A stretch of 58,849 nt of DNA, taken from NCBI GenBank assembly GCA_005809105.1, contig SYLI01000060.1, positions 1-58,849 of the forward strand, given 5' to 3'. The notes below the pieces were generated by a model. That model was not told the origin of the DNA and searched no databases. It was given only the letters and a program-made list of their open reading frames with translations. A program made the translations under genes and the position numbers. The number at the start of each line of letters is the position of its first letter. Position 1 is the stretch's first letter. The DNA comes from Verrucomicrobiales bacterium (lineage in GTDB: Bacteria; Verrucomicrobiota; Verrucomicrobiia; Limisphaerales; UBA1100). Shown one piece after another: positions 7,824 through 58,849 of the stretch.

Positions 7824-8824
7824 CGCAGCGCCCCGCCTCTCCCCCGGCGCCGCGCGCCGCGTGGGCCGCCGACGAACACTGGGCCCAGGTGCCCCCGGGC
7901 TGGGGCTGGACGGAGGTTGCCGGTGTCGCCACCGATTCGCGCGACCGCGTGTTGGTGTTTAACCGCGGCCCGCATCCACTCATGATCTTCAATCGCGATG
8001 GCAGCTTCGCGGACTCTTGGGGCGAGGGGCTGTTCATGCGGGCGCACGGCATCACCATCGCGGCGGATGACAGCGTGTGGTGCGTGGACGACCTCGGGCA
8101 CACGGTGCGGAAGTTTTCGCCCAAGGGCGAACTGCTCCTGACGCTGGGCACGCCCGGCCGCCCATCGGACACCGGCGCCACGAGCATCGACTTTCGCACC
8201 ATCCAGCACCCAGGCCCGCCGTTTCATTTTCCCACCAATGTTGCGTTGGCTCCCAACGGCGACGTGTTCATTGCGGACGGCTACGGCAACGCGCGCATCC
8301 ACCGCTTCGCCGCCGACGGGCGCCTGCTGCATTCGTGGGGCGAACCCGGCGCGGGCGCGGGGCAGTTTCGTGTGCCGCACGGCATTGCGCTGTGCCCGCA
8401 GGGAAGAGTGTGTGTGGCCGACCGCGAGAACGGGCGCCTCCAGTTCTTTTCGCAAGATGGCGCGTTCTTGGAAGAATGGAGCGACCACGCGCGTCCGTGT
8501 CAGGTGCACTTTGATGGCGATGGACAAATCTGGGTCGCCGAGCTGGGCTATCGCGCAGGCATGTGGCCGGGGACGCAGGCGCCCTCTCCCGACGCCACGG
8601 GCGGTCGCGTGAGCCTCTTTAGTGCGTCAGGCACGTTGCTTCACCGTTGGGGCGGTGGCGACCATCCCACCGCGCCCGGCGACTTCTTCGCGCCGCATGA
8701 TCTCTGCAGCGATTCCCACGGCGACATGTACGTGGCCGAGGTGGTGATGTCGGCGGGCGGCAACCGCGGACTGGTTCCGCCCCATTGTCACAGTCTGCAG
8801 AAGTTCACCAAGGTTCCCCGATGA
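7820..8824 (+). CDS. NHL-repeat beta-propeller protein
   Basis: 334-aa protein starting with GTG at 7820, overlapping the lactonase stop by 4 bp. No signal peptide is visible. NHL-type blades recur as a hydrophobic strand followed by G-x-[IV]-x-V-[AT]-D (GDVFIADGYGNARIHRF, GRVCVADRENGRLQFF, GQIWVAELGYRAGMW, GDMYVAEVVMSAGG). About six blades fill the whole length, as in the peptidyl-alpha-hydroxyglycine lyase fold. Such propellers may be enzymes or scaffolds; no catalytic set is certain here. It overlaps the dehydrogenase start by an ATGA junction, so lactonase, propeller and dehydrogenase should be made in fixed proportion. Confidence 0.85.
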   Translation: MTQRPASPPAPRAAWAADEHWAQVPPGWGWTEVAGVATDSRDRVLVFNRGPHPLMIFNRDGSFADSWGEGLFMRAHGITIAADDSVWCVDDLGHTVRKFSPKGELLLTLGTPGRPSDTGATSIDFRTIQHPGPPFHFPTNVALAPNGDVFIADGYGNARIHRFAADGRLLHSWGEPGAGAGQFRVPHGIALCPQGRVCVADRENGRLQFFSQDGAFLEEWSDHARPCQVHFDGDGQIWVAELGYRAGMWPGTQAPSPDATGGRVSLFSASGTLLHRWGGGDHPTAPGDFFAPHDLCSDSHGDMYVAEVVMSAGGNRGLVPPHCHSLQKFTKVPR

Positions 8825-9927
8825 AGGCCTGGCGATTTTACGGATTTAACGACATGCGGCTGGACGAGGTGCCCGCGCCCGAGCTGCGCGCGCGCCACGT
8901 GCTGGTGAAGCCCCTTTGCGTGCAGCCCAGCGTCACCGAGGCGCAACTGGCCTGCGGCATCCCCACGCTGGCGTACGAGCGCATCAAGCGGCGGCTGGAA
9001 ACCTCCGCACCCCTGCAGCTCTTCGGACACGAATTCTGCGCGCGCATCCTCGCCGTGGGCGAAGGGGTGAACGGGTTTGCGCCCGGCGACCGCGTGGCCG
9101 CGCGCGCCAAGCTGCCGTGCGAAGCGTGCCCCCTCTGCCTCGCAGGCCGCAGCCATCTCTGCCGTGAAGGCCCCGTCATCGGCTTCGATCTGCCCGGATG
9201 CTTTGCCGAGACGGCCATCCTGCCTGCGCTTGCCCTCGTGAAGGTGGATGACGCCATCTCCGACAGCCACGCAGCCTGCCTGCAGTCGCTCTCCGACAGC
9301 GTGGCCGCCGTCGAGACTGCGCAAATCCGCGTGGGCGACACCGTTGCCATCTTCGGGCAGGGCAGCATGGGGCTTGAATGCCTTCAGGTGGCGCGCCTTT
9401 GCGGCGCTGGGCGCGTGATCACGGTGGATGTCCGCGAGGAATCCTGCCGCGTCTCCCGCGAGCTGGGTGCTGACCACGCGCTCAACGCGCGCACCTGCGA
9501 CGTGGTGGAAACCCTGCGCCAGATCACCGGCGGCCACGGCGCCGATGTCGTGTTCGAATGCGCCGGTGGCAGCCCCAGGCAGGGGTTGGCCGGCTCGGCT
9601 ACGCTCCTGCAGGCCATCGACTCGGCGCGTTCCGGCGGCACCATGGTCGGCGTCTCCTGGTTTGGCGGGCCGATGGAGCTGAATCTGGACACCCTGCGCG
9701 AGCGCAGCCTGCGCTATGTGTTCCCCGACATCAGCACCCAGACGCACCTGGAACACACCGTGCGCCTCGTCGCCTCGGGCCGCGTTCGGCTCGGGCCCAC
9801 CATCACGCACCGGCTGCAGGGGATTGAATCGGTGCCGCGCGCCTTTGAGATCACCGCCAACAAGTCGAAGTTCGCCGCCCTCAATCCCGCGCAGGTGATG
9901 TTCTCCCCCTTGCAGGGGGGGCAATAA
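8821..9927 (+). CDS. Medium-chain Zn-type alcohol/polyol dehydrogenase, atypical catalytic loop
   Basis: 368-aa MDR-family dehydrogenase. The start at 8821 (MKAWRFYGFNDMRL) overlaps the NHL stop. The structural-zinc lobe is intact (CEACPLCLAGRSHLC), as are the GHE motif (FGHEFCARI), the GDRV turn and a Rossmann segment (VAIFGQGSMGLECLQVARL) with an acidic residue after the second strand (TVDVRE), favouring NAD. Where most zinc ADHs have C-G-x-C-G-[ST]-D, this protein has LCVQPSVTEAQLACG, so the usual catalytic Cys ligand is not obvious. The last residues (MFSPLQGGQ) and the stop lie inside a dispersed repeat at 9907-10013. Likely substrate: a polyol or sugar alcohol, by inference from the coupled lactonase. 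Confidence 0.87.
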   Translation: MKAWRFYGFNDMRLDEVPAPELRARHVLVKPLCVQPSVTEAQLACGIPTLAYERIKRRLETSAPLQLFGHEFCARILAVGEGVNGFAPGDRVAARAKLPCEACPLCLAGRSHLCREGPVIGFDLPGCFAETAILPALALVKVDDAISDSHAACLQSLSDSVAAVETAQIRVGDTVAIFGQGSMGLECLQVARLCGAGRVITVDVREESCRVSRELGADHALNARTCDVVETLRQITGGHGADVVFECAGGSPRQGLAGSATLLQAIDSARSGGTMVGVSWFGGPMELNLDTLRERSLRYVFPDISTQTHLEHTVRLVASGRVRLGPTITHRLQGIESVPRAFEITANKSKFAALNPAQVMFSPLQGGQ

Positions 9928-10013
9928 GGGGTCTGTCCGGGTTGGGCACCTGCGGTGGGCGATAGGCGCGAAGCCCCTTATTGCTGCGGCGCAGGCCCGG
10001 GCGCAGCCCCCCC
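9907..10013. repeat. Mosaic repeat, copy 2, with perfect 11-bp inverted ends
   Basis: Lies between two convergent genes and covers the end of the first. GCAATAAGGGG (9921-9931) is the exact reverse complement of CCCCTTATTGC (9974-9984), and the two enclose 42 nt containing GGGCACCTGCGGTGGGCGATAGG (9944-9966). The pairing is extended on both sides by G-runs (about 9915-9921) and C-runs (about 10007-10013). It could fold as a long hairpin acting as a two-way terminator. The inner word matches 55923-55946 closely, and GAAGCC...TTATTGC matches 41-52 and 56323-56339. Confidence 0.8.
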
Positions 10014-10014
10014 C

Positions 10015-11421
10015 TCAGGCGAGGATTTGCTTTACCACGCGGCCGGACACGTCGGTGAGACGGAAGTCGCGGCCTGCATGAGGGAAGGTGAGCTTCTCGT
10101 GGTCAAGGCCCATGAGGTGGAGCATCGTGGCGTGCAGGTCGTGGATGTGCACGATGTCCTGCGTGGCGTGCCAGCCAAATTCATCGGTGGCGCCAAAGGC
10201 CATGCCGCCCCTGATGCCACCGCCCGCCATCCACATGCTGAAGCCAAAGGGATGATGCTCGCGTCCGTTCTTTCCCTCGGCGGTGGGGGTGCGGCCAAAT
10301 TCGCCGCCCCAAAGCACCAGCGTGTCCTCCAGAAGACCGCGCGACTTGAGGTCGGTCAAGAGCGCGGCAATGGGCTGATCCACGGCGCGGCAGCGCTTGG
10401 GCAGCGCGTCGTGGATGCCGTTGTGGTGATCCCACGCGTTGTTGGCCGGCGCGTCAAAGAGATGGACAAAGCGCACGCCGCGCTCGACCAGCCGCCGGGC
10501 CAGCAGGCATTGGCGGCCGAAGAGCTCGGTCGCGGGCTGGTCGGTGCCGTAGAGCCGGTGCGTGGCGGCCGTTTCGCGCGCGAGGTCAAAGGCCTCCGGC
10601 GCCTCGCGCTGCATCCGAAAGGCCAGCTCGAAGGAGGCGATGCGCGCATCAAGCTGGCTGTCGGGCGCGCGGGTGCGCTGGTGCAGTTCATTGAGACTGC
10701 GCAGCGCGTCAAGCTTGGCGCGTTGGCGAACCGTGTCGGTTGCGCCATCGCCCAGATTGGCAATGGGGTTTTTGAGATCGCGCACCAGCGTGCCCTGATA
10801 GGCGCTGGGCAGGAAGCTCGATGCCCACAACTGCGCGCCCTGAAACACCGCCGCGGGCGACACCACGACAAACGCCGGCAGGTTTTGGTTTTCCGTGCCC
10901 AGTCCGTAGGTGAGCCACGAGCCCAGACTGGGCCGCGAGAACGCCTGTTCGCCGGTACAGAGCTGCAGCGCCGCGCCGGAGTGGTTGATGTTATCCGCGA
11001 GCATGGAGCGGATGACGCAGAGGTCGTCCATGTGCGAGCTCAGGTACGGCAGCAGTTCGCTCACCTCGACGCCGGAGCGGCCCTTGCGCGCGAAGGCCCA
11101 GGGCGACGCCATCAGATTGCCAGTCTTGGTGCGCTCGAGCTTGGGTTTGTCGAAGGGCAGCGGCTTGCCGTTGTCCACCTTGAGGCGCGGCTTGGGGTCG
11201 AAGAGATCGACGTGCGAAGGCCCGCCGGGCATGTAAAGGAAGATGACGCGCTTGGCCTTGGGCGCGTGGTGCGGGGATTGAAGCGCAAAAGGATGCGTTG
11301 TGCGTCGGACAGTCTCTGAGGCGAGCAACTCGGAGAGTGCGAGCAGCCCGAACCCGCAGCCGCTGCGGGAAAGCATCTGTCGGCGTGAGAGCGCCGCAGC
11401 CCTGCCCAGGTCATTCTCCAT
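10015..11421 (-). CDS. DUF1501 protein, Tat-exported
   Basis: 468-aa protein. The ATG at 11421 gives MENDLGRAAALSRRQMLSRS, with a twin-arginine motif (LSRRQML) and a hydrophobic stretch after it. The DUF1501 hallmark MPGGPSHVDLFDPKP follows near residue 85, then conserved segments such as GSWLTYGLGTENQNLPAFVV, DHHNGI and LVLWGGEFGRTP. The fold resembles alkaline phosphatase/sulfatase. DUF1501 genes nearly always pair with DUF1549/DUF1553 genes in Planctomycetes and Verrucomicrobia; the reaction is unproven. The start overlaps the upstream DUF1553 stop by 11 bp, indicating coupling. It is the last gene of a long minus-strand run and ends 2 bp from the repeat. Confidence 0.9.
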   Translation of the reverse strand: MENDLGRAAALSRRQMLSRSGCGFGLLALSELLASETVRRTTHPFALQSPHHAPKAKRVIFLYMPGGPSHVDLFDPKPRLKVDNGKPLPFDKPKLERTKTGNLMASPWAFARKGRSGVEVSELLPYLSSHMDDLCVIRSMLADNINHSGAALQLCTGEQAFSRPSLGSWLTYGLGTENQNLPAFVVVSPAAVFQGAQLWASSFLPSAYQGTLVRDLKNPIANLGDGATDTVRQRAKLDALRSLNELHQRTRAPDSQLDARIASFELAFRMQREAPEAFDLARETAATHRLYGTDQPATELFGRQCLLARRLVERGVRFVHLFDAPANNAWDHHNGIHDALPKRCRAVDQPIAALLTDLKSRGLLEDTLVLWGGEFGRTPTAEGKNGREHHPFGFSMWMAGGGIRGGMAFGATDEFGWHATQDIVHIHDLHATMLHLMGLDHEKLTFPHAGRDFRLTDVSGRVVKQILA

Positions 11422-13447
11422 AGATGAGTTCGTTGCTGCACAGCAGCACATGCGCCAGGTCGGCCCATGCGGCGGGGCCTTGGGCGCCCCGCACCAGCCG
11501 CGTGGCGATGGCCAGTTCGTCCGCGCCGGGTGCGCGGTGGAAGAGCAGCCGATAGGCGAGACGCACGCGCGCGCTTTCAGAATCCGGCGCCGTGTCGGGC
11601 ACCTCGCGCATCAGGCGCGCGGCAAGGTGCCCTGATTGATCGCGCATGAAACTGCTGTTGAGCAGAAAGAGCGCCTGCGGCGCCACCGTGCTGACGGGGC
11701 GCGCCTCGGCGCAGGCGTCGGGATTGGCGGCGTCAAAGAGAGTGGAAAAACTGCCCCGATCCCAGCGCGCGGTTTGCAGGTACAAGGAGCGCCGCGTGCC
11801 GGACAACTCCGAGTCGGCCGGGCCTCCGAACTGGGTGTCGAGCCGGCCGGAGACCTGCAGCATCGTGTCGCGAATAGCCTCGGCGTCCAGCCGGCGCGCG
11901 GGGAAACGCGCGAGCCAACGGTTGTCGGGATCTTTGGCCTGCGCATCGGGCGCGTTGGCTGATTGCCGGTAGGAGGCCGAGAGCACGATGCGCCGGTGCA
12001 GCGCCTTCACTGACCAACCTTCCTCGACGAACCGCGCCGCAAGCCAGTCGAGCAGCGCCGGGTGCGAGGGTGCCCTGGAGTTGATCCCGAAATTGTTGGG
12101 TGTGGCCACCAGCCCGGCGCCGAAGTGTCCCTGCCAGACGCGGTTCACGGCAACGCGCGCGGTGAGGGGATGGGTGGGCGAGGCAATCCACTCGGCCAGT
12201 TCGCGCCGGCCGCTGCCACTGCGGATGGGAGCCTGATTGGTGCCCTTAAAGAACACGGGCAAAGCGCGCGGCACGACGCGCCCCAGCCGCGTGTAGCTTC
12301 CGCGCAGGTGGATGGGAACGTCCTGAATGCCGGGGAAAAGCCCGCCGGGCACGCCACCCTCGCTCACCGCCAGCGCAAGAGGCGGCTCGGGCGGCAGGTC
12401 TTTTTGCAACTGGTCGCGCCGCGCCGCAAGCTTGGCGCGCGCGGGATCATCGGGCGCAGGCTTGGGCTGGGCCTTGTCCAGCGCGGCGAGCTGGGTGTTC
12501 GCCTCGGCAAGCTGGGTGACAAGGCCGATGCGCTGCTCCACGATGGCGTCGGGCACGAGCGAGCGGCGTTGCAGCGTGATTTCGCCGCCCTTGGTGCCCA
12601 GTTCCTTGAGCATGCGCGTGCTGTAAAACATACCGGCCAGCGCGTAGTAGTCGGCCTGCGAGATGGGGTCGTACTTGTGGTCGTGGCAGCGGGCGCAGCC
12701 CAGCGTCAACGCGAGGAAAACCTTGCCCACGGTGTCCACCTGGTCGTCCACCATGTCGCTCACCATCTTCTCCTTGTCCGCGTCGCCGCGATCCCACACA
12801 CCATTGATGAGAAACGTGGTGGCGACCAGCCCGCCGGCGTAGGGCGCCTTGCCGTCGGGTGCATCCAGCAGGTCTCCGGCAATCTGGTGGGTGATGAATT
12901 GGTGGTAGGGCATGTCGCGATTGAGCGACTCAACCACCCAGTCGCGGTAGCGCCACGCCTCGACGGGTTCGCACACGGGATTGCGCGCCTTGGCATCCGC
13001 GTCGTGATAGTCGGCGTAGCGCACAGCATCAAGCCAGTGTCGCGCCCACCGCTGGCCGTACTGTGGCGAGGCCAACAGCCTGTCGGCAACGCGCTCAAAC
13101 GCATCGGCCGTCGCATCGGCAAGGAACGCGTCCATCGCCTCAAGAGTGGGCGGTAAGCCCGTGAGGTCGTAACTCACGCGGCGCAGCCACTGGCGGCGGG
13201 TGGCTTCGGGTGCTGGCGCCATGCCGTGGCTCTCCAACTCCGCAGCAATGAAATGGTCAATTTCGTTGCGAGCCCACGCGGTGTTTTTGATCGCGGGGAT
13301 TGCCTGCGGCTGCACCGCTTGGAAAGCCCACCAGCTCTCCGGCTTCACGGCGACTGTCGCCGGATGGGGAAGCGTGCTGCAGGCTTGGGCCAGCGCGGCC
13401 AGTGCGGCCAGCCCACGGGCCAAATTGTTGCGCGAGCCCTGTCGCAT
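11411..13447 (-). CDS. DUF1549/DUF1553 planctomycete-cytochrome-type protein
   Basis: 678-aa protein; the ATG at 13447 gives MRQGSRNNLARGLAALAALA with a Cys shortly after, a probable export signal. The DUF1549 (PSCyt2) part has RVSYDLTGLPPTLEAMDAF, YGQRWARHWLDAVRYADYHD and the c-haem-like CARCHDHKYDPI. After a variable Ala/Lys/Pro-rich helical region come the DUF1553 hallmarks: RRELAEWIASPTHPLTARVA, VNRVWQGHFGAGLV, NNFGINSRAPSHPALLDWL and SASYRQS. The N-terminal cytochrome domain found in many relatives (PSCyt1) is absent. It is coupled to the DUF1501 gene downstream and starts 22 bp after the WD40 gene. Presumed periplasmic; activity unknown. Confidence 0.9.
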   Translation of the reverse strand: MRQGSRNNLARGLAALAALAQACSTLPHPATVAVKPESWWAFQAVQPQAIPAIKNTAWARNEIDHFIAAELESHGMAPAPEATRRQWLRRVSYDLTGLPPTLEAMDAFLADATADAFERVADRLLASPQYGQRWARHWLDAVRYADYHDADAKARNPVCEPVEAWRYRDWVVESLNRDMPYHQFITHQIAGDLLDAPDGKAPYAGGLVATTFLINGVWDRGDADKEKMVSDMVDDQVDTVGKVFLALTLGCARCHDHKYDPISQADYYALAGMFYSTRMLKELGTKGGEITLQRRSLVPDAIVEQRIGLVTQLAEANTQLAALDKAQPKPAPDDPARAKLAARRDQLQKDLPPEPPLALAVSEGGVPGGLFPGIQDVPIHLRGSYTRLGRVVPRALPVFFKGTNQAPIRSGSGRRELAEWIASPTHPLTARVAVNRVWQGHFGAGLVATPNNFGINSRAPSHPALLDWLAARFVEEGWSVKALHRRIVLSASYRQSANAPDAQAKDPDNRWLARFPARRLDAEAIRDTMLQVSGRLDTQFGGPADSELSGTRRSLYLQTARWDRGSFSTLFDAANPDACAEARPVSTVAPQALFLLNSSFMRDQSGHLAARLMREVPDTAPDSESARVRLAYRLLFHRAPGADELAIATRLVRGAQGPAAWADLAHVLLCSNELIYGE

Positions 13448-55868: not shown

Positions 55869-56035
55869 GCGCAGGTTGCGCCAACCCCCTGCGGGGGGCA
55901 ATGAATGATTGCCGTGCGCGCCGGGCACCTGCGGTGCGGCGATAGGGGTGCTGCGCGCCAGCAATAATTATCTGTACCCAGGAAAAAGGGTGCTGCGGAG
56001 GGCAATATTGCTGGTGCAATCCCCCGCAGGGGTCT
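55869..56035. repeat. Mosaic repeat, copy 3, left part
   Basis: Non-coding DNA upstream of zwf. Contains CCCCCTGCGGGGGG, a hairpin GGCAAT-GAATG-ATTGCC (55897-55913), GGGCACCTGCGGTGCGGCGATAGG (55923-55946, near match to 9944-9966), CAGCAATAATTATC, a 10-bp palindrome GCAATATTGC (56002-56011) and CCCCGCAGGGG. GCAAT and its complement ATTGC recur as building words. No ribosome site or signal-like protein was found in any frame. Confidence 0.75.
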
Positions 56036-56302
56036 GATCGCGGACGATCCAAGCATGATCACGCGTCAACATGGTCTGATCACGGACGGAACAGCCATTA
56101 TCGCCTCCGTCGCAGCCGGGATCACGGACGGAACAGCCATTATTGCCTCCGGCGCAGCCGGGATCACGGACGATCCAAGCATGATCACGCGTCAACATGG
56201 TCTGATCACGGACGGAACAGCCATTATCGCCTCCGGCGCAGCCGGGATCACGGACGGAACAGCCATTATCGCCTCCGGCGCAGCCGGGATCACGGACGAT
56301 CA
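56036..56302. repeat. Modular GATC tandem array with a 21-bp period
   Basis: The array reads A-B-C-C-A-B-C-C-A(partial). A is 21 bp (56036-56056, 56162-56182), starting GATCRCGGACGATCC. B is 21 bp (56057-56077, 56183-56203), GATCACGCGTCAACATGG plus TCT. C is 42 bp (56078-56119, 56120-56161, 56204-56245, 56246-56287), starting GATCACGGACGGAACAGCC. The higher-order unit A-B-C-C is 126 bp. Every module begins with GATC, and module lengths are all multiples of 21. Copies differ by only a few bases. The C module contains ATTATYGCCTCCGGCGCAGC, matching the family word seen at 47-62 and 130-146. Unlike CRISPR there are no unique spacers. Confidence 0.9.
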
Positions 56303-56545
56303 AGGGGTTTGCGCCCTCCGGTGAAGCCCCCCTTATTGCCGGGGGTGCAACCCCCACGCGTTGGTGTGGATTTTCACGCACATCCGTGTCGAGGTAACGG
56401 ATAGTTGCACCCCATGAAGTAGGGCTTTGCCCCGTATTGCCGTGCGCAGCCGGGGACAATTTGCTTGGCACCACACCTGCTTGAGTGTTTAATGGCATGG
56501 TCATGGTGATGGGGCATAAACCGGCGGCCCCTGCGGGGGGCCATG
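56303..56545. repeat. Mosaic repeat, copy 3, right part, reaching into the pseudopilin gene
   Basis: After the array come CTCCGGTGAAGCC then CCCCTTATTGCCGGGGG (56315-56345), then a less repetitive stretch, then CCCCGTATTGCCGTGCGCAGCC (56430-56451). A further piece, GGCCCCTGCGGGGGGCC followed by ATGCCGTCCGCAGG, lies at about 56524-56559, inside the start of the pseudopilin frame. So the repeat seems to supply the N-terminal leader of that protein. Promoter elements for the gene were not recognised. Confidence 0.65.
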
Positions 56546-58169: not shown

Positions 58170-58849
58170 ATGCGCATAAGATTTCCCCAGGTTTGGAGGT
58201 TGCTGCTTCCACTCATCGCATTGGTGGCGATGGACTTGAGCACTCCCGCGCTTCGTGCGCAGTTGGGGCTGGGCAGTCTCATGGGCGGCATGGGAATCGC
58301 AAGTGGGCTGCAGGGCATGGGAGGCGGCGGCATGCTTGGCAATGCCATGGGCCGAGTGAATGGCATGATGAATAATCTTGGTAGCATGGGTGGGATGATG
58401 GGCGGTGGAATGGGTGGAATGAACGGCATGGGTGGAATGAACGGCATGGGTGGAATGGGCGGCGGCATGGGAGGAATGGGCGGCGGCATGGGAGGAATGG
58501 GCGGCGGCATGGGAGGAATGGGAGGAATGGGAGGCATGAACGGGATGGGAGGCATGAACGGGATGGGAGGCATGAACGGGATGGGTGGTATGGGAGGAAT
58601 GGGAGGAATGGGAATGGGAGGCATGAACGGCATGGGAGGAATGGGCGGCATGGGAGGCATGGGTGGAATGAATGGGATGGGTGGTATGGGCGGCATGGGA
58701 ATGGGCGGCATGGGCGGCATGGGAATGGGCGGCATGGGCGGCATGGGAATGGGAGGAATGGGCGGCATGGGAATGGGAGGAATGGGCGGCATGGGAATGG
58801 GCGGCATGGGAATGGGCGGCATGGGAATGGGCGGCATGGGAATGGGCGG
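58170..58849 (+). CDS. Exported Gly/Met-repeat protein (partial, cut at right window edge)
   Basis: Open from ATG 58170 to the end of the window (226 codons so far). Signal peptide MRIRFPQVWRLLLPLIALVA, cleaved near RAQ, then a short region LGLGSLMGGMGIASGLQGM. From about codon 60 to the edge almost only Gly and Met, with a few Asn: GGMGGMNGM and GMGGMG units of 3 to 12 residues. Similar GGM tails occur on GroEL, but here the repeat is the mature chain. It may be a flexible, hydrophobic, possibly metal-binding (Met-rich) envelope or extracellular protein. The opposite strand also reads open (Pro/Ile/Met), but only this strand has a signal peptide and promoter. Confidence 0.8.
   Translation, partial: MRIRFPQVWRLLLPLIALVAMDLSTPALRAQLGLGSLMGGMGIASGLQGMGGGGMLGNAMGRVNGMMNNLGSMGGMMGGGMGGMNGMGGMNGMGGMGGGMGGMGGGMGGMGGGMGGMGGMGGMNGMGGMNGMGGMNGMGGMGGMGGMGMGGMNGMGGMGGMGGMGGMNGMGGMGGMGMGGMGGMGMGGMGGMGMGGMGGMGMGGMGGMGMGGMGMGGMGMGGMGMG
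58380..58849. repeat. GGMGGM-coding microsatellite-like repeats
   Basis: Nested repeat of 9-, 12- and 15-bp units built from GGCATGGGA, GGAATGGGC and GGCATGAAC, all in the same reading phase. Repeat lengths are multiples of 3, so changes in copy number keep the frame. The last 80 bp is a very regular run of GGCATGGGAATGG. Such tracts are prone to slippage and assembly error, so the exact length here is uncertain. Confidence 0.9.

Follow-up and report, generated by a model that had tools for sequence, protein, structure and literature searches.

The 111-bp gap at positions 9904-10014, where an alcohol-dehydrogenase-type gene and a DUF1501 gene converge, is a mosaic of short modules belonging to a REP-like family of tagged hairpins. 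The window is the whole stretch of DNA analysed here, 58,849 nucleotides of a contig from a Verrucomicrobiales bacterium. The explanation preferred here, and judged probable, is that the species has seen the expansion of a REP/BIME-like mosaic, that one cluster of this mosaic replaced the tail of the dehydrogenase and that tag and loop are read on folded single-stranded DNA.

Modules of the intergenic gap

Read on one strand, a module consists of the tag TAT[TC]GC, 5 to 6 nt and a hairpin with the loop GCA and a stem of 4 to 6 bp; on the opposite strand it appears as a hairpin followed by GGCRATA. The features of the gap, together with two further clusters of the same modules in the window, are listed below.

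37-201, no strand assigned: further cluster with modules of this kind, at the left end of the contig
9904-9927, plus strand: last seven dehydrogenase codons (SPLQGGQ) and stop TAA, from module A; NPAQVMM and two more residues form the end in three orthologs
9905-9926, minus strand: module A; hairpin CCCCCTTGCAGGGGG at 9905-9919 with loop GCA on the minus strand, tag TATTGC at 9921-9926 on the minus strand
9921-9931, plus strand: left arm of the inverted repeat, the tag of module A plus AGGGG
9946-9964, minus strand: module B; hairpin CACCTGCGGTG at 9947-9957, tag TATCGC at 9959-9964 on the minus strand; 29.9 bits
9962-9979, plus strand: middle hairpin, imperfect; ATAGGCGCGAAGCCCCTT here, ATAGGGGCGAAGCCCCTT elsewhere at four places in L012 and L013
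9974-9984, plus strand: right arm of the inverted repeat, CCCCT plus the tag TATTGC of module C
9979-9998, plus strand: module C; tag TATTGC, then TGCGGC-GCA-GGCCC; stem unpaired, one of 8 unpaired among 70 sites
9999-10009, plus strand: hairpin D; GGGC-GCA-GCCC, no tag
55880-56360, no strand assigned: further cluster of the same modules, including the 42-nt array at 56036-56329

The covariance model R1, described below, scores module A as a match at C44:9906-9926 (-) with 22.1 bits. A module order similar to that of the gap, namely, hairpin-tag, CACCTGCGGTG-hairpin-tag, GCGAAGCC and tag-hairpin, is found on contigs C14, C40 and C63.

The 42-nt array in the right-hand cluster carries an intact tag with a hairpin of the type found in the gap (CCGGCGCAGCCGG, giving TAT[TC]GCCTCCGGCGCAGCCGG) in three of its seven units and a mismatched form in one. 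Pieces of another unit type of this array, GATCACGGACGATCCAAGCATGATCACGCGTCAACATGGTCT, recur in L014, L017 and L020. The word CTGTACC[CT]AGGAAAAAGGG, with no obvious hairpin of its own, recurs inside clusters (window 55972-55990, L019, and L020). L010 holds AGTCTACATGCCACCCCTTGCAGGGGGGCAATAGG three times in tandem at 440-640, one module each, with a further AAGTGTTGGCGCG common to the first two. Gly-Met-rich repeats of the ATGGGAGG type occupy 58224-58849 of the window and are cut off by the right contig end.

The inverted repeat

The original prediction described a repeat with 11-bp perfect inverted ends enclosing 42 nt between convergent genes, and both its coordinates and its setting are confirmed. 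The left arm, GCAATAAGGGG, lies at 9921-9931 and the right arm, CCCCTTATTGC, at 9974-9984, with 42 nt (9932-9973) between them. The dehydrogenase gene (8821-9927, plus strand) and the DUF1501 gene (10015-11451, minus strand) flank the repeat with their 3' ends converging, and the dehydrogenase stop codon TAA (9925-9927) falls within the left arm. By itself, the 11-bp inverted repeat is at chance level for the window and is not significant: two perfect inverted repeats with arms of 11 bp or more and a gap of up to 60 occur in the window, compared to a mean of 2.08 in 50 dinucleotide shuffles, and at least two occur in 33 of these 50 shuffles. What lies beyond chance is the module family to which parts of the inverted repeat belong.

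The AGGGG and CCCCT of the two arms are themselves the arms of a further small hairpin, which is found elsewhere as AGGGGCGAAGCCCCT next to the tag, at four places in L012 and L013. Perfect arms are missing from the three composites whose module order is similar, the spacings there are different, and the two exact arms lie less than 100 nt apart at this place only, in the window and the examined stretches of the genome. The arms are therefore not the ends of a unit, and the expectation that the inverted repeat would be kept in other copies fails. A proposed link between the 42-nt center and the module of the array at 56036-56329 also falls away. Center and array share a local score of 10, compared to a shuffle mean of 8.7, and 76 of 300 shuffles equal it; as there is no significant similarity, the equal length of 42 nt is taken as a coincidence. 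Overall, the original interpretation is partly supported.

A family with fixed tag and loop and a free stem

The genome from which the window comes (G000) is a draft of 2.99 Mb in 106 contigs with 95.93% completeness. The presence of DUF1501, PSD1 and PSCyt2 family genes points to the Planctomycetes-Verrucomicrobia group. The 111-bp gap sequence has 60 matches in it at an E value of up to 10, itself included, most of which are partial; the best other match covers query positions 3 to 90 of 111 at 79%. Twenty stretches of the genome were chosen around similarity matches to the gap and were read together with the window. In this set, TAT[TC]GC followed by 5 to 6 nt and GCA occurs at 70 sites, 62 of which have a perfect 4-bp stem, with ten different stem sequences among them. 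The other 63 loop triplets yield two paired sites altogether after the tag. No G-T wobble pair occurs at the 70 sites, none of the nine tag...TGC sites in the window and the 20 stretches has a paired stem, and no loop inversions are seen there. Among 84 module instances, preselected for stems of at least 4 bp, the loop is GCA in 83, and the stem measures 4 bp in 45, 5 bp in 32 and 6 bp in 7.

Because the 20 stretches had been picked by similarity, the test was rerun genome-wide without a stem requirement. The tag-loop pattern has 117 matches, compared to 28 for the reversed control. The first 100 of these 117 matches comprise 54 with at least four stem pairs, 2 with three, 10 with two, 8 with one and 26 with none, a split to be expected if chance matches are added to a genuine family.

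In the window, 17 GCA hairpins lie in the approximately 3.8 kb outside called genes and 22 in the 55 kb inside them. The commonest hexamers 5' of 198 GCA hairpins are ATTGCC, TATTGC and TATCGC. Strict double-hairpin units with inward-facing tags number 16 in the examined stretches, a count that leaves out the reported site with its imperfect right hairpin. The two hairpins of such units often differ in stem, and units often stand tag to tag around a third hairpin.

Near restriction to one genome

Among the genomes searched, the family appears nearly confined to G000. The pattern SCTGCGSNNNGCRATA has 49 matches in this genome, compared to 1 in the reversed control; in 57 other genomes, it has 0 to 7 matches, about as many as the reversed controls, with 2 in the same-genus genome G001. 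Model R1 at an E value of up to 1 gives 98 matches in G000, 6 in G001 and 0 to 5 in 38 other genomes; it was built from modules of G000, which in part predetermines its count there, and at most 150 candidates were scored per genome (150 of 7106 at first look). The two best R1 matches in G001 lie in one cluster (L074 1470-1575) and have the variant tag TATGGC instead of TATTGC. This cluster is situated between the ends of apparent NtrC-like and flagellin genes and adjoins a hairpin with a T run that looks like an ordinary terminator. These matches show a family that is not entirely foreign to the genus but underwent its expansion in G000.

TATGGC was rejected as a discriminating tag, with 23 matches compared to 18 reversed in G000 and 6 compared to 10 reversed in G001. 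Single pattern matches in 2 viral contigs and 12 genome contigs were also considered as signs of a wider spread; these 14 outside loci have only 0 to 4 GCA hairpins of at least 5 bp each and are therefore taken as chance matches.

Replacement of gene ends

The dehydrogenase has the C terminus NPAQVMF-SPLQGGQ. Three orthologs with 80, 80 and 77% identity end in NPAQVMMCH, NPAQVMMRL and NPAQVMMKG, so that all three stop earlier and none has a SPLQGGQ-like tail. This comparison of C termini, which the original prediction had called for, upholds its claim that the repeat supplies the last codons and the stop of the dehydrogenase. The DUF1501 protein on the other side of the gap carries no extension, as its match in G022 reaches the last residue, residue 478.

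Tails of the same kind in two further proteins lend support to the notion of a repeat that landed at the gene end. The IleRS of G000 (PF08264, PF06827) ends in CTRCTQAL-PLQGAPAVRQ, a tail made up of two hairpins and the CAA-TAG of the tag. In all 16 matching relatives, this enzyme ends at most 6 residues past the A[VI] after the last CxRC, which is 4 to 9 residues before the end in G000. The Gfo/Idh-type oxidoreductase (L021) ends in GREYRPGW-APAVGNTAAPGQ, compared to REYR[KPN]GWE[PL][KV]V, eight residues earlier, in 14 of 14 orthologs; the loci compared were the 16 gathered for IleRS, in 14 of which the gene is present. The two genes are convergent neighbors in several relatives and lie close to contig ends in G000, on C11 and C78 (IleRS, L015 1-723; Gfo/Idh, L021 157-999), so a single insertion region may account for both changed tails. 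In the examined stretches of the genome, six genes end on the CAA-TAA or CAA-TAG of the tag. No precise empty site was found, the sequence past the dehydrogenase being variable among the relatives compared.

Relationship to known palindromic repeats

The family is a REP-like variant. It resembles REPs and BIMEs, as characterized by Di Nocera et al. 2013 (PMC3733652), in that its units are short, dispersed, predominantly extragenic, multicopy palindromes with an unpaired tag at one end. They are clustered, with several palindromes of opposite orientation at a short distance from one another as in BIMEs, and they form opposite-orientation pairs, some with structured spacers. Like the termini of GTAG REPs, which often do so, they supply stop codons, and like some REP families, which are species specific, they are nearly restricted to one of the genomes searched; Opitutus terrae, of the Verrucomicrobia, is described as rich in REPs (PMC3733652).

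Unlike GTAG and CGTC REPs, the family has the tag TAT[TC]GC and a nearly constant GCA loop on varying stems. Neither GTAG nor CGTC is found among the 25 commonest hexamers 5' of the 198 GCA hairpins, and the stems of 4 to 6 bp compare to 6 to 13 bp, mostly 6 to 9 bp, in GTAG REPs and 8 to 9 bp in CGTC REPs (PMC3733652). The RAYT (Y1 transposase) genes of GTAG REPs are often flanked by REPs and may be lost, and CGTC REPs are not associated with transposase genes (PMC3733652). The draft G000 contains no PF01797 match. As tag, stem length and transposase all depart from those of these classes, the family is not filed as a GTAG or CGTC REP and is called REP-like.

In TnpA-REP recognition, the tag and a loop or bulge are read, with a 3-nt loop in the Stenotrophomonas system (PMC8266576). 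The fixed tag and loop of the present family resemble these substrates, as recognition of single-stranded hairpins would keep both. In contrast to TnpA-REP/RAYT systems, no such transposase was found in G000: the Y1 transposase family PF01797 has no match there at an E value of ≤1, with positive control genomes, and none at ≤0.01 in G001 or in G002 from the same family. PF01797 exceeds the cutoff in 4 of 20 genomes of the family, G001 and G002 not among them. A Y1 transposase as the mover, found in none of these three genomes, was set aside; the mover may have been lost or may be encoded in the missing few percent of the draft.

A TAT[TC]GC tag is described in no title or abstract among the matches listed for open-license literature on small dispersed palindromes, Verrucomicrobia palindromic repeats, triloop repeats and REP/RAYT with Planctomycetes, a search by topic. 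REPINs are paired inverted REPs that form one unit; the two hairpins of a pair in the present family differ from these in often having different stems. The small dispersed repeats of cyanobacteria, reportedly treated by Elhai et al. in 2008, are likewise repeated elements of very small size and presumed mobility, and the family is likened to them by description.

Alternative explanations

The gap might act as a two-way transcription terminator or an RNA-level 3' element between the convergent genes, which is improbable. Its position between converging 3' ends is consistent with such a role, as are the pairing of the inverted repeat in the predicted fold of the minus-strand RNA and the RNA roles proposed for REPs (PMC3733652), but the plus-strand fold makes no use of the inverted repeat, and the 70 tag...GCA sites contain no G-U pairs. 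No intrinsic terminator, a GC-rich stem followed by a T run, is found in 9700-10200, and the RNA fold of 9895-10014 shows no extra stability over shuffles on either strand (z scores of -0.88 and -0.03). The only Rfam match in 9700-10300 is below threshold and outside the feature (13.3 bits; gathering threshold, 50). Rough gene calls place 11 of 21 clusters between divergent genes, 6 between unidirectional genes and 4 between convergent genes, a preference for divergent gaps that also sets the clusters apart from published REPs (PMC3733652). A weakly scored gene underlies four of the 11 divergent calls (L017, L024, L025, and L028), and the tally omits clusters with doubtful flanking genes or fewer than two called ones (L020, L021, L022, L026, the left end of the window, and the hairpin group L012:4538-4573). 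Given the missing site, the missing fold signal and the 11 divergent clusters, the two-way terminator of the original prediction is not supported. A 64-nt mobile unit (MITE) bounded by 11-bp terminal inverted repeats, the other role suggested there, is highly improbable. The perfect arms would suit it, and the 79% match over query positions 3 to 90 indicates that the composite as a whole has relatives, but each arm joins AGGGG to the tag of a different module, a repeat of this kind is expected by chance, and the composites at C14, C40 and C63 do without the perfect arms, a point against any unit defined by them. MITEs measure 70 to 300 bp with terminal inverted repeats of 15 to 30 bp, compared to 64 nt in all with 11-bp arms here.

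The main rival for the perfect stems is template switching during replication, in which short hairpins copied back on themselves would change the sequence of the stems and keep their perfect pairing, and slippage would enlarge the clusters with no need for a transposase. It has in its favor that the stems are perfectly paired in ten sequences free of G-T wobble, that G000, G001 and G002 yielded no Y1 transposase and that hairpin stems are reportedly both formed and repaired by template switching (PMC8794818). Alone, it leaves unexplained both the fixed 6-nt tag at a fixed distance and the dispersal to many contigs. The lack of paired stems at all nine tag...TGC sites and of loop inversions also speaks against it, yet a switch inside a hairpin can leave the loop orientation unchanged. 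Overall, template switching is rather unlikely. Speaking against the preferred REP/BIME-like explanation are the missing Y1 transposase, the lack of a precise empty site, the draft state of G000, the preference for divergent gaps and the choice of the 20 stretches by similarity; a few stem words may also have been multiplied by ordinary duplication.

Proposed spread and significance

According to the preferred explanation, a REP/BIME-like cluster would have reached the 3' end of the dehydrogenase gene, by insertion rather than by another rearrangement, replacing its last codons and lending the CAA-TAA of its tag as the new end. The units probably spread as single-stranded hairpins. A putative enzyme, acting in trans or since lost, would identify the folded single strand of DNA from its tag and loop in the manner of TnpA-REP on some REPs; recognition of this type would be expected to hold tag and loop constant and to let the stem vary as long as it pairs. 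A more far-reaching proposal, possible but doubtful, is that the family represents a third kind of tagged minipalindrome beside GTAG and CGTC REPs. Such a kind would be defined by a TATYGC tag, a GCA DNA triloop and interchangeable stems, a burst in one species, a single-strand DNA enzyme other than Y1 and a CAA-TAR within the tag that gives host genes a clean end.

The fixed parts of the module, tag and loop, can be separated from the free stem within a single genome, an indication of what is recognized by the machinery of spread. As no Y1 transposase turned up in G000, G001 or G002, the family sharpens a question already posed for CGTC REPs, that of a tagged palindrome spread without a known transposase. 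Repeats of this kind also rewrite the ends of genes, including that of IleRS, an essential enzyme.
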